From Hyphomonadaceae bacterium (GTDB lineage: Bacteria; Pseudomonadota; Alphaproteobacteria; Caulobacterales; Aquidulcibacteraceae): a stretch of 37,900 nt of DNA. The stretch is taken from positions 1 through 37,900 of the forward strand of contig JAPUEP010000251.1 in assembly GCA_027492515.1 (NCBI GenBank), read 5' to 3'. Shown piece after piece: positions 33,653 through 37,301 of this stretch (positions are counted from its first letter, which is position 1; each line of letters starts with the position of its first letter). The notes below the pieces were generated by a model. It had not been told where the DNA came from. It saw nothing but the letters and a program-made list of their open reading frames with translations, and searched no databases. The position numbers and the translations under genes are program-made.

Positions 33653-33682
33653 AAAAACCCGCCGATTGGCGGGTTTTTGTTT
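33653..33682. terminator. Bidirectional terminator between phaB and the VOC gene
   Basis: The stem AAAAACCCGCC / GGCGGGTTTTT with loop GATT is flanked by A and T runs on each side, so it can stop transcripts from either strand. The VOC stop overlaps its edge. Confidence 0.88.
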
Positions 33683-34211
33683 AGTTGTCATGTAACCACG
33701 CCGCGTGTTTTGGGGCGATTTTGGTTTCGTTCCATTCATCAATCATGATTGGTGCAACGCGTTTTAGTTCCGCCATTTGTTCGGGGGTTGCGCAATCGGC
33801 CGCAAGTTCAAGGCGGTGACCATTGGGGTCAAAGAAATAAATGCTTTTGAAAATCGTGTGATTGGTTGGGCCAATAACTTCGATGCCAAGGTTTTCAATA
33901 TGTTCCTTTGCCGCCATTAAGGCATCATAATCTTTTACCGCGAATGCAATATGTTGAACCCATTTTGGTGAATTGGGGTCGAAACCCATTTCGGGGTGTT
34001 TTGGTAATTCAAAAAATGCCAAAACATTGCCGCCACCTGCATCAAGGAAAATGTGCATATAGGGGTCATGTTCGCCAGTTGATGGAACATAATCTTCGGA
34101 AATTGCCAGTTGAAAATCCATGCCCAAAACTTTTTGGTAAAATTCAACCGTCTCTTTGGCATTGATGCAGCGATAAGCAACATGGTGGATTTTTTGCAAA
34201 TTAGGCAGCAT
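33681..34211 (-). CDS. VOC (glyoxalase/dioxygenase fold) family protein
   Basis: 176 residues. Two beta-alpha-beta-beta-beta modules: KIHHVAYRCINAKETVEFYQKVLGMDF at the start and KWVQHIAFAVKDYDALMAAKEH, then TIFKSIYFFDPNGHRLELA. Likely metal ligands are the His near residue 10, the His of VQHIAF and the Glu of HRLELA. It could be an extradiol dioxygenase, glyoxalase or epimerase; the substrate cannot be read. Its start overlaps the hppD stop by 11 bases, so it is the last gene of the tyrosine-catabolism operon and probably acts on a related intermediate. Confidence 0.85.
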   Translation of the reverse strand: MLPNLQKIHHVAYRCINAKETVEFYQKVLGMDFQLAISEDYVPSTGEHDPYMHIFLDAGGGNVLAFFELPKHPEMGFDPNSPKWVQHIAFAVKDYDALMAAKEHIENLGIEVIGPTNHTIFKSIYFFDPNGHRLELAADCATPEQMAELKRVAPIMIDEWNETKIAPKHAAWLHDN

Positions 34212-35292
34212 TGGTTTTATCCTTCAAAACGCCACGGCGAATTTGGTCAAGTTCAATTGATTCAAACAAAGCGCGGAAATTACCTTCGCCAAAGCCTTCA
34301 TTGCCTTTACGTTGAATAAATTCAAAGAAAATTGGCCCAAGCATTTCATTAGAGAAAATCTGAAGCAAAAGACCTTGCCCTTCTGATGGTGCGCCATCAA
34401 TAAGAATACGGCGTTTTCTAAGTTCTTCAACATTTTCGCCATGCCCAGGGAGGCGTTTGTCAATTAAATCAAAATAAGTTTCAATTGTATCTTGAAGTTC
34501 AACGCCATTTTTGCGCAAGCCATCAACCGATGATAATAAATCATTTGTGCCAAGGGCGATGTGTTGAATGCCTTCGCCATTATATTTTTCAAGATATTCG
34601 GCAATCTGATCTTTCACGCCTTCAACACCTTTTGATTCATTGATTGGAATACGAATTTTACCGCATGGCGATGTCATTGCTTTTGATGTAAGGCCTGAAA
34701 CTTTGCCTTCAATGTCAAAATAGCGGATTTCGCGGAAATTAAAAACGTTTTCGTAAAAATTCGCCCATTTTTCCATATCACCCTTATAAACATTGTGGGT
34801 TAAATGGTCGATATAAGTGAAGCCAAGGCTGTTGGCTTTTTCTTCTTGGGCGGTATTTTCAACGGGGTCAAAATCGATGTCATAGATTGATTTATCACCA
34901 TATCTATCGACAAGATAAACATATGAACCGCCAATGCCTTTGATGCATGGAATATCAAGTTCAAGTGGGCCTTTCTTGCGTTCGACAATTTCAGCGCCGC
35001 GTTTGGCTGCTTCTACAAGGGCGAATGCGGCATCTTTTACGCGAAATGCCATTGCATTGGCGCTTTGACCATGAAGTCTGCCAAATTCACTTGGTTGGCC
35101 TTGGGTTTCCATATTAAGGATGAAATTTATTTCGCCTTGTTTTAATCTTAAAACATCTTTGGTTTTATGTTTTCCCGCAATAACAAAGCCAAGAGTTTTT
35201 AATTTCGCCAAAATCTCCGCAGGGTTTGGCCCCGTAAATTCAACAAATTCAAAGCCATCAGTATTAAGCGGGTTTTCAAACAAATCAGCCAT
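34201..35292 (-). CDS. hppD: 4-hydroxyphenylpyruvate dioxygenase
   Basis: 363 residues, usual length. Converts 4-hydroxyphenylpyruvate to homogentisate in tyrosine breakdown. The iron ligands of the family are in place: His163 in YIDHLTHNV, His244 in IQHIALGTND and Glu324 in IFFEFIQRKG. The KRRILIDGAPSEGQGLLLQIFS segment and the C-terminal helix are canonical. The ribosome binding site GGGAG (35306-35302) is nine bases before the ATG and sits in a hairpin. It follows an apparently inserted gene in the maiA-marR-hppD-VOC operon. Confidence 0.97.
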   Translation of the reverse strand: MADLFENPLNTDGFEFVEFTGPNPAEILAKLKTLGFVIAGKHKTKDVLRLKQGEINFILNMETQGQPSEFGRLHGQSANAMAFRVKDAAFALVEAAKRGAEIVERKKGPLELDIPCIKGIGGSYVYLVDRYGDKSIYDIDFDPVENTAQEEKANSLGFTYIDHLTHNVYKGDMEKWANFYENVFNFREIRYFDIEGKVSGLTSKAMTSPCGKIRIPINESKGVEGVKDQIAEYLEKYNGEGIQHIALGTNDLLSSVDGLRKNGVELQDTIETYFDLIDKRLPGHGENVEELRKRRILIDGAPSEGQGLLLQIFSNEMLGPIFFEFIQRKGNEGFGEGNFRALFESIELDQIRRGVLKDKTNAA

Positions 35293-35300
35293 TAAAATAT

Positions 35301-35325
35301 TCTCCCTGTTTTCACAAAAGGGAGA
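35301..35325 (-). promoter_or_regulatory. Hairpin that sequesters the hppD ribosome binding site
   Basis: In the mRNA, TCTCCC pairs exactly with GGGAGA, which contains the Shine-Dalgarno sequence of hppD. An inner TTTT/AAAA stem with a GTG loop and a two-base bulge extends it. The structure ends eight bases before the ATG, so opening it would control hppD translation; an attenuator is the other reading. Confidence 0.5.
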
Positions 35326-35342
35326 TATAATAAATTAGTTTC

Positions 35343-35367
35343 ATTTGCAACTATTATTTTTGAATTT
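35343..35367. repeat. Left copy of a 25-bp direct repeat
   Basis: Begins ATTTGCAACTATTA and ends TTTTTGAATTT; identical in all 25 positions to 36221-36245. It lies between the unknown gene and hppD. Only the right copy is part of marR, so this copy looks like a duplicate made by insertion. Confidence 0.85.
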
Positions 35368-35392
35368 ATTCTTGCATTAATATCTCAGGCTT

Positions 35393-36166
35393 TTATTGCG
35401 ATTTAGGTTCAAACCCAAGTTTTGAGGTTATAATCGCAGCCTCCATAGCAAGTTTCATTCCGATTTCAGGGCTAAGAACCTTACTTGTTTCCTCAAGATA
35501 GATGCCAGCAATAAGATTAATAATTATCGGCCTATGTTCAAATGACGGCGGCGCAAAATTTGTGCCGCTTGGTACAGATTGTGCAAACCATTGACTAATA
35601 TGTGGCAATAGCAAATCAACGATTTTCACAGGTTCTAATTGTGGGATGTGTTCAGGCCCGCACATTTTCAAATTATAATCGTTATTTATGACGTCTTCTA
35701 TTTTTTGCTTAAACATCATATTAATGTCAGGAAATTGATTTTGCGGCATTTGAAGTGTAATTGCACTTTTTGCAAGAGATTGGAAAAGTGAAATTCTTCC
35801 TTCTTTTTCTTGAACCAAGAAACTATTTAATTCGTCACCAGCAAGTAAAATACGCCCGTCAACTAATTCTATAGTAACATAATCTTTGCCTATTATGCCG
35901 ATTTTCGTTTTTATAAGATTTTCATAAACAGCCTGAAATGCACATGCGCCCGCAAGCGCACCCACAGCGACCATTAGGGTTTCGGCTTGTAATCTGCCAT
36001 CAATAGTTAGTATGGTTTTGATATGTTCATAAATCATTCGATAGGCAAAATTACACGATATATAATCATCTTTGCCATACCAAGGTAGCCATTCATTAGT
36101 AGTTTTTTCTGGTGGATTTATTTCTAGTTTATCACTTTTATTGGCTTTCTTTTTTCCGAAAAACAT
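35393..36166 (-). CDS. Hypothetical protein between marR and hppD
   Basis: 257 residues; no family recognised, though similar proteins may exist in alphaproteobacteria. The N-terminus is basic (FGKKKANKSDKLE) and lacks a signal peptide. DDYISCNFAYRMIYEHIKTILTIDGRLQAETLMVAVGALAGACAFQAVYE is a helical, small-residue-rich core, followed by a beta segment (KDYVTIELVDGRILLAGDEL) and a helical end. It is probably cytoplasmic. It interrupts what would otherwise be a marR-hppD junction and is enclosed by the 25-bp direct repeat, with 26 and 54 bases of flank inside the repeats. Confidence 0.7.
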   Translation of the reverse strand: MFFGKKKANKSDKLEINPPEKTTNEWLPWYGKDDYISCNFAYRMIYEHIKTILTIDGRLQAETLMVAVGALAGACAFQAVYENLIKTKIGIIGKDYVTIELVDGRILLAGDELNSFLVQEKEGRISLFQSLAKSAITLQMPQNQFPDINMMFKQKIEDVINNDYNLKMCGPEHIPQLEPVKIVDLLLPHISQWFAQSVPSGTNFAPPSFEHRPIIINLIAGIYLEETSKVLSPEIGMKLAMEAAIITSKLGFEPKSQ

Positions 36167-36220
36167 AATGCAATTCCACGCTAATATTTACAAATAATAT
36201 TATGCATACAATATGCTTAT

Positions 36221-36245
36221 ATTTGCAACTATTATTTTTGAATTT
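36221..36245. repeat. Right copy of the 25-bp direct repeat, overlapping the end of marR
   Basis: Identical to 35343-35367. It contains the last three sense codons (I-Q-K) and the stop of marR, read on the minus strand, plus the following 11 bases. This shows that the original sequence belonged to the marR 3' end. Confidence 0.85.
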
Positions 36246-36672
36246 CGTCCACACGCGTCCAAAGTGCGCGTAAAAGGCCATCGAGTGATAGGATTTCTTC
36301 TTTAGAAAACGTGCCAAGTAGGGAATGTTCCAATTCTTTGGCAACAGGGATAATTTCATCAACCACGCTTTGGCCTTCTTTTGTTAGATTTAGTGATTGA
36401 AATCTTTTATCATTATCTTGGGATTTTTTTGTAACAAGGCCGCGTGTAATAAGTGATGAAACAGTACGTGAAACGTTTACCTTATCCATCAAAGTTCGGT
36501 TCACCAAATCTTGCTGCGATAATGGCGCATGTTCATTCAAAACCGCAAGCAAGCGCCATTGCGGAATGGTCAAACCAAAACGTGTTTCATAGGCTTTGGC
36601 AATAAGCCCTGAAACTTTGGCGGACGTGACCGCCAATCTATATGGTAAATATTCTTCGAGTGATAGGTTCAT
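36232..36672 (-). CDS. MarR family transcriptional regulator
   Basis: 146 residues with a winged helix: YRLAVTSAKVSGLIAKAYETRFGLTIPQWRLLAVLNEHAPLSQQDLVNRTLMDKVNVSRTVSSLITRGLVTKKS, then KDNDKRFQSLNLTKEG. MarR proteins next to hppD and maiA usually control aromatic amino-acid breakdown in response to a pathway compound. The start overlaps the maiA stop as ATGA, so it is cotranscribed with maiA, and its 3' end lies in the repeat. Confidence 0.93.
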   Translation of the reverse strand: MNLSLEEYLPYRLAVTSAKVSGLIAKAYETRFGLTIPQWRLLAVLNEHAPLSQQDLVNRTLMDKVNVSRTVSSLITRGLVTKKSQDNDKRFQSLNLTKEGQSVVDEIIPVAKELEHSLLGTFSKEEILSLDGLLRALWTRVDEIQK

Positions 36673-37301
36673 TTTTGCGTATCTGGTGAGGTTGAAATAA
36701 AGGCAATATGATTGCGGGCTTTTTTATCAAAACTTTCAAGAATTGGAAATTGCGTTAAATCAACCCCATAACGCACGGCATTATTCCATTGCGGAACAAG
36801 GCATATATCGGCAATTGTTGGATAGTCGGCAAACAAAAATTCGGTTTTGGGCGGGTTGTTTTGCAATTCTTTTTCAAGGCCAATAAAGCCACGTGCAATC
36901 CAAAATGCCGACCATTTGGCCTGATCATCAACACTTTGCCCAAAATCTTCGCCAATTTTGCGACGGGTTGAAAGGTTTTGAAGCGGGAATATATCGGCAG
37001 CAATTGCATGGGCAAAGGCGCGGCTTTTTTGGCGCGCAATAATATCTTTTGGGAAAAGCGATGGATTTGGATATTTTTCTTCCAAATATTCAATAATCGC
37101 CAAAGATTGTGCAAGCCCATTTTCGCCATCAATTAAATATGGAACACGCCCTTGCGGGTTAAGATTTTTATATTCTTCGCTTTGGTGGGCGTTTTCAATC
37201 AAATTCACCCCCAAAACTTCATATTCAAGCCCCTTCAAAGCCAATGCAATACGCACACGATATGACGCCGAAGATTGCGAAAAAGAATATAATTTTAGCA
37301 T
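36669..37301 (-). CDS. maiA: Maleylacetoacetate isomerase (zeta-class GST)
   Basis: 210 residues from the ATG at 37301, which has AAGG upstream; a longer frame to 37376 would add 25 residues with no match. Opens MLKLYSFSQSSASYRVRIALALKGLEYE, with the zeta-class SSxSxRVR active-site motif, then NPQGRVPYLIDGENGLAQSLAIIEYLEE. Isomerises maleylacetoacetate to fumarylacetoacetate using glutathione, two steps after homogentisate. Homogentisate dioxygenase and fumarylacetoacetase are not in the window. First gene of the operon; divergent from the Bax inhibitor-like gene. Confidence 0.93.
   Translation of the reverse strand: MLKLYSFSQSSASYRVRIALALKGLEYEVLGVNLIENAHQSEEYKNLNPQGRVPYLIDGENGLAQSLAIIEYLEEKYPNPSLFPKDIIARQKSRAFAHAIAADIFPLQNLSTRRKIGEDFGQSVDDQAKWSAFWIARGFIGLEKELQNNPPKTEFLFADYPTIADICLVPQWNNAVRYGVDLTQFPILESFDKKARNHIAFISTSPDTQK

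Follow-up and report, generated by a model that had tools for sequence, protein, structure and literature searches.

Many integrative elements restore the end of the target gene on integration, and the usual length of an att core includes 25 bp, longer than the target duplications usual for transposons; those of the well-known bacterial insertion sequences are shorter than 25 bp. The insert described here carries one gene (referred to as X) and lies between a marR-family gene and hppD in a tyrosine operon of a Hyphomonadaceae bacterium. It resembles integrative elements with an att core at a 3' gene end in having a direct repeat at both ends and in restoring the end of the target gene, but differs from them in the lack of an integrase, in consisting of one gene, in a site that is not reused and in showing no sign of present mobility. 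It resembles transposon target-site duplications in that the target is directly duplicated and relatives have a clean empty site, but differs in a repeat length, 25 bp, that is long for a bacterial insertion sequence, and in having neither a transposase nor terminal inverted repeats. Literature on one-gene insertions with long duplications was searched and nothing useful was found. Elsewhere, in Alteromonadales and relatives, tyrosine degradation is predicted to be under the MarR-family regulator HmgS (PMC5343134). As in that system, a MarR-family gene is tied here to tyrosine-degradation genes preceded by a palindromic site, but the lineage and the gene order are different (marR-hppD here, hmgAB there).

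Taken as a whole, the locus is likely to record an old event that happened once, in which a single gene was inserted at the marR-hppD junction and the target duplicated, after which X was kept as a functional gene. The observations underlying this account are the empty and filled sites, the single and double occurrence of the motif, the age of the insert relative to the sister species, and the constraint on X and its leader. The locus offers a clean and datable case of an extra gene entering a working operon harmlessly, the duplication having supplied a second copy of exactly those bases that both neighbours require.

Structure of the locus and the 25-bp repeat

The window (the whole stretch of DNA analysed, 37,900 nucleotides) carries on its minus strand, in coding order, a GST-family gene resembling maiA (36669..37301; maleylacetoacetate isomerase by context), a marR-family regulator gene (36232..36672), X (35393..36166; 257 aa, uncharacterised and mostly alpha-helical), hppD for 4-hydroxyphenylpyruvate dioxygenase (34201..35292) and a second gene of the glyoxalase/dioxygenase superfamily (33681..34211). 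The marR product probably controls the neighbouring tyrosine-breakdown gene hppD.

The original prediction of an exact 25-base repeat enclosing 853 bases with one gene was confirmed. The two direct copies, at 35343-35367 and 36221-36245 (minus strand), are identical at 25/25 positions and both read ATTTGCAACTATTATTTTTGAATTT; the segment between them (35368..36220, 853 bp) contains a single gene-sized open reading frame, that of the 257-aa protein X, for which no domain match was obtained. The right copy comprises, as had been noted, the last three marR codons and the marR stop (36243-36232), plus 11 nt, and takes in the left half of an operator-like sequence, whereas the left copy lies in the hppD leader and continues into the intact operator-like palindrome of hppD.

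The repeat is the longest in the window and exceeds every shuffle: sequences shuffled under a Markov model reached maximal repeat lengths of 10-17 nt (2.5-kb region, 300 shuffles) and 14-20 nt (whole window, 40 shuffles), against the 25 nt observed, in line with the earlier estimate that an exact repeat of this length is improbable by chance. That the 25-mer is a common genome repeat, which would have counted against an insertion, was ruled out, as the 2.56-Mb assembly contains these two copies only, even with three mismatches tolerated.

Empty and filled sites in relatives

A relative with marR leading directly into the hppD leader and one copy of the 25-mer had been proposed as a check, and G001, of the same genus, fits this description. 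It has the BI-1 (divergent), maiA, marR, hppD and glyoxalase-type genes in the order of the window, lacks X, and has approximately 50 bases between the marR stop and hppD. The motif is present once at this junction (AAAATCAAATAAATTAGTTGCAAATGAAACTAATT), and the window flanks joined across the repeat read GAAATTCAAAAATAATAGTTGCAAATGAAACTAATT. G001 was the one same-genus empty site available, no hppD match having been found in G003 and G004; in the sister-genus genomes (g6), marR and hppD likewise stand with no X between them.

The sister species (G002; HYPHO1 MAG, L003), with approximately 10% divergence from the window in coding DNA, has X at the same place together with both repeat copies, the left one with one inserted A and one substitution. 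The presence of X and of both copies in this second genome makes an assembly artefact very unlikely. A search of 61 relatives and of 398 genomes from the order found X at the marR-hppD junction in these two sister species only, and the insertion can be placed from this distribution after the split from G001 and before the split from G002. The predicted insertion at the marR-hppD junction with duplication of 25 bases was thus supported by an empty site in G001 and a filled site with both copies in G002.

The same distribution bears on the reading in which X was ancestral at the junction and was precisely lost from G001 and others through recombination between the 25-bp copies. Such an exchange would yield exactly the empty site observed, but with X here confined to two sister species many independent losses would be needed and the repeat would still require an origin, so that this reading is highly improbable.

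Divergence from G001 was uneven within the operon (34201-36672), with hppD 89% identical, marR 51% and maiA 63%; the second glyoxalase-type gene was 74% identical. Replacement by a xenologous marR was considered for the difference between marR and hppD and was set aside, the tree having given no resolution and maiA and the second glyoxalase-type gene having diverged too.

The operator-like palindrome

In most relatives read, hppD is preceded by a near-palindrome of the TTAGTTGCAAATGAAACTAA type. It is found shortly after the marR stop in G001 and in the g6 loci, where marR adjoins hppD, and the G001 and sister-genus genomes have one such palindrome after marR. The corresponding near-palindrome in the window, ATAGTTGCAAATGAAACTAA (35335..35354, minus strand), is presumed to be the MarR-type operator of hppD; the left 25-mer copy extends into it and holds its first part. 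The motif is single in the genomes with an empty site and both copies are present in G002, which indicates that the 25-mer is made up of the marR 3' end and the left half of the presumed MarR operator before hppD.

Sites were scored with a palindrome model built on twelve sites. The intact hppD palindrome was the top-scoring site in the window at 28.7 bits, a value that is partly by construction since the window's own site was among the twelve. The right-hand remnant, cut after TTGCAAAT, scored 9.8 bits, which is not affected in this way, against 20-29 bits for the hppD sites of relatives. Selection of the repeat as a second regulator site placing X under MarR control, as opposed to its creation by the insertion, is barely credible: conservation is strong in and around the right copy, but the repeat spans marR codons as well as a half-operator, and the right-hand site is as weak as this score indicates.

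Constraint on X and its leader

Purifying selection acts on X, with dN 0.058, dS 0.365 and dN/dS 0.16 between the window and G002; the dS values of its neighbours in the same comparison were 0.46-0.66. The 68-bp stretch between marR and X, counted from the marR stop (36167..36234, minus strand) and presumed to be the promoter region of X, is identical to the sister species at 67/68 positions; this single difference (p < 5e-6 at 80% neutral identity) is far fewer than synonymous sites predict. A promoter-like pair, TTGCAA-18-CATAAT (CATAAT at 36204-36199), is present in this leader, and its first box falls within the right 25-mer copy, where TTGCAA could serve as a -35 box for X as well. In a promoter scan such sites were no commoner than in shuffles, and the pair is accordingly put forward as a suggestion for the X promoter. 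The leader (36167-36234) also contains the inverted repeats GCATA-TTG-TATGC and TAATATT-ATTTGTA-AATATTA.

The two 25-mer copies of the window have stayed identical for longer than neutral drift permits, which needs either constraint on both or gene conversion. The identity is best explained by constraint on both copies, acting on the gene end and leader on one side and on the operator on the other, with gene conversion as a possible alternative cause.

Model of the insertion

According to the model, the lineage shared by this species and G002 had already separated from G001 when a short segment carrying X alone entered the marR-hppD junction at a point inside the presumed MarR operator of hppD (TTGCAAAT|GAAACTA), and the 25 target bases would have ended up at both sides of the insert. 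The copy beside marR would have retained the end of marR and the copy beside hppD the complete operator, so that neither neighbour was broken, which is the likely reason for the survival of the insertion. X would now be a resident gene whose transcription probably depends on a constrained 68-bp leader of its own; this leader includes part of the right copy with the possible -35 box and half an operator. X may be expressed together with the tyrosine operon. For the joining step, break repair or illegitimate recombination with fill-in of staggered ends is favoured over a transposase because mobility genes are absent, although such absence is weak evidence after so long a time.

Signs of mobility and other routes of entry

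As in transposable elements, the target is directly duplicated and relatives show an empty site; as in the integrative elements of tyrosine recombinases, a core is repeated at both ends and the end of marR is restored, in the window and in the sister species. The 853-bp insert was examined for a transposase, recombinase or integrase gene or remnant (open reading frame list; Pfam, NCBIfam, PHROG) and for inverted repeats linking its two ends, and none was found, which agrees with the original prediction that no transposase is present. The accompanying proposal that X itself takes part in mobility was not borne out, as X gave no domain or fold match, has no second copy in the genome and has relatives without bracketing repeats; present-day mobility of the segment found no support.

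Site-specific integration would make the 25-mer an att core at the marR 3' end, used by a small element that restores the gene end and whose integrase acted in trans or has since been lost. Like an att site, the repeat re-creates the end of the gene, marR stop included, and its length is usual for a core and above that of usual transposon duplications. This origin is nevertheless unlikely, given that the 853 bp hold no recombinase gene, that the site has not been used again in the genome, that the relatives of X are without bracketing repeats and that X has no match in phage, plasmid and viral collections. The direct duplication and the clean empty site in relatives could also stem from a one-gene unit mobilised in trans by a transposase, but the duplication exceeds those of well-known bacterial insertion sequences, no inverted repeats connect the ends of the insert, and of these two ends the one behind X has diverged more between the sister species than the one before it; we regard such a transposon-type duplication as quite unlikely. 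It is very unlikely that the X family is an undescribed kind of single-gene cargo that moves on its own, enters operons at gene ends via trans-acting recombination and leaves a long target duplication.

Protein X and its relatives

The event is a well-documented and rather ordinary gene gain, and the uncharacterised protein X is its most interesting part. It marks a conserved alphaproteobacterial protein family without a domain model, and its position in the tyrosine operon is a first hint toward function. X gave no usable match in Pfam, NCBIfam, PHROGs or the sequences of solved structures, and no match in collections of phages, plasmids and viral contigs; weak NCBIfam matches of its relatives (best E 0.0025) carried unrelated enzyme names and were not used. 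The predicted structure consists mostly of helices and has one beta hairpin (pLDDT 75.7, pTM 0.78). Foldseek returned no match at E < 0.2 (best second-look Z 4.9), and the scattered helical and membrane proteins in the fold comparison, none of them significant, were left unused.

Relatives of X are scattered in Alphaproteobacteria. Distant ones of almost full length occur in 5/15 genomes of g35, a genus belonging to another family within the order (25-31% identity, approximately 225-248 residues, E 2e-19 to 3e-15), and a weaker one in G606. Positions common to X and its relatives include P28, W29, G31, D34, C38, N39, D103-R105, E242, S248 and K249. X is somewhat poorer in G+C than its neighbours (0.36 against 0.40-0.44), and both this and its patchy spread suggest that it was gained horizontally; no donor came to light, and outside the genus the closest relatives are the 25-31% identical proteins above. 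Segments with X homologues flanked by repeats, which the original prediction had proposed to look for, did not turn up: no repeats convincingly bracket the gene in the relatives, and the genome has no second copy of X. The repeats are thus a feature of this one insertion, not of the family of X.

In g35 the relatives of X adjoin a gene for a TipA/MerR-type regulator (L043:615-2307; named by eye), and 5/6 of the g35 genomes with this regulator have X too. The relative in G606 (L052:1480-2274) lies between genes identified by eye as threonine aldolase and arginase, again in amino-acid metabolism, which may be coincidence.
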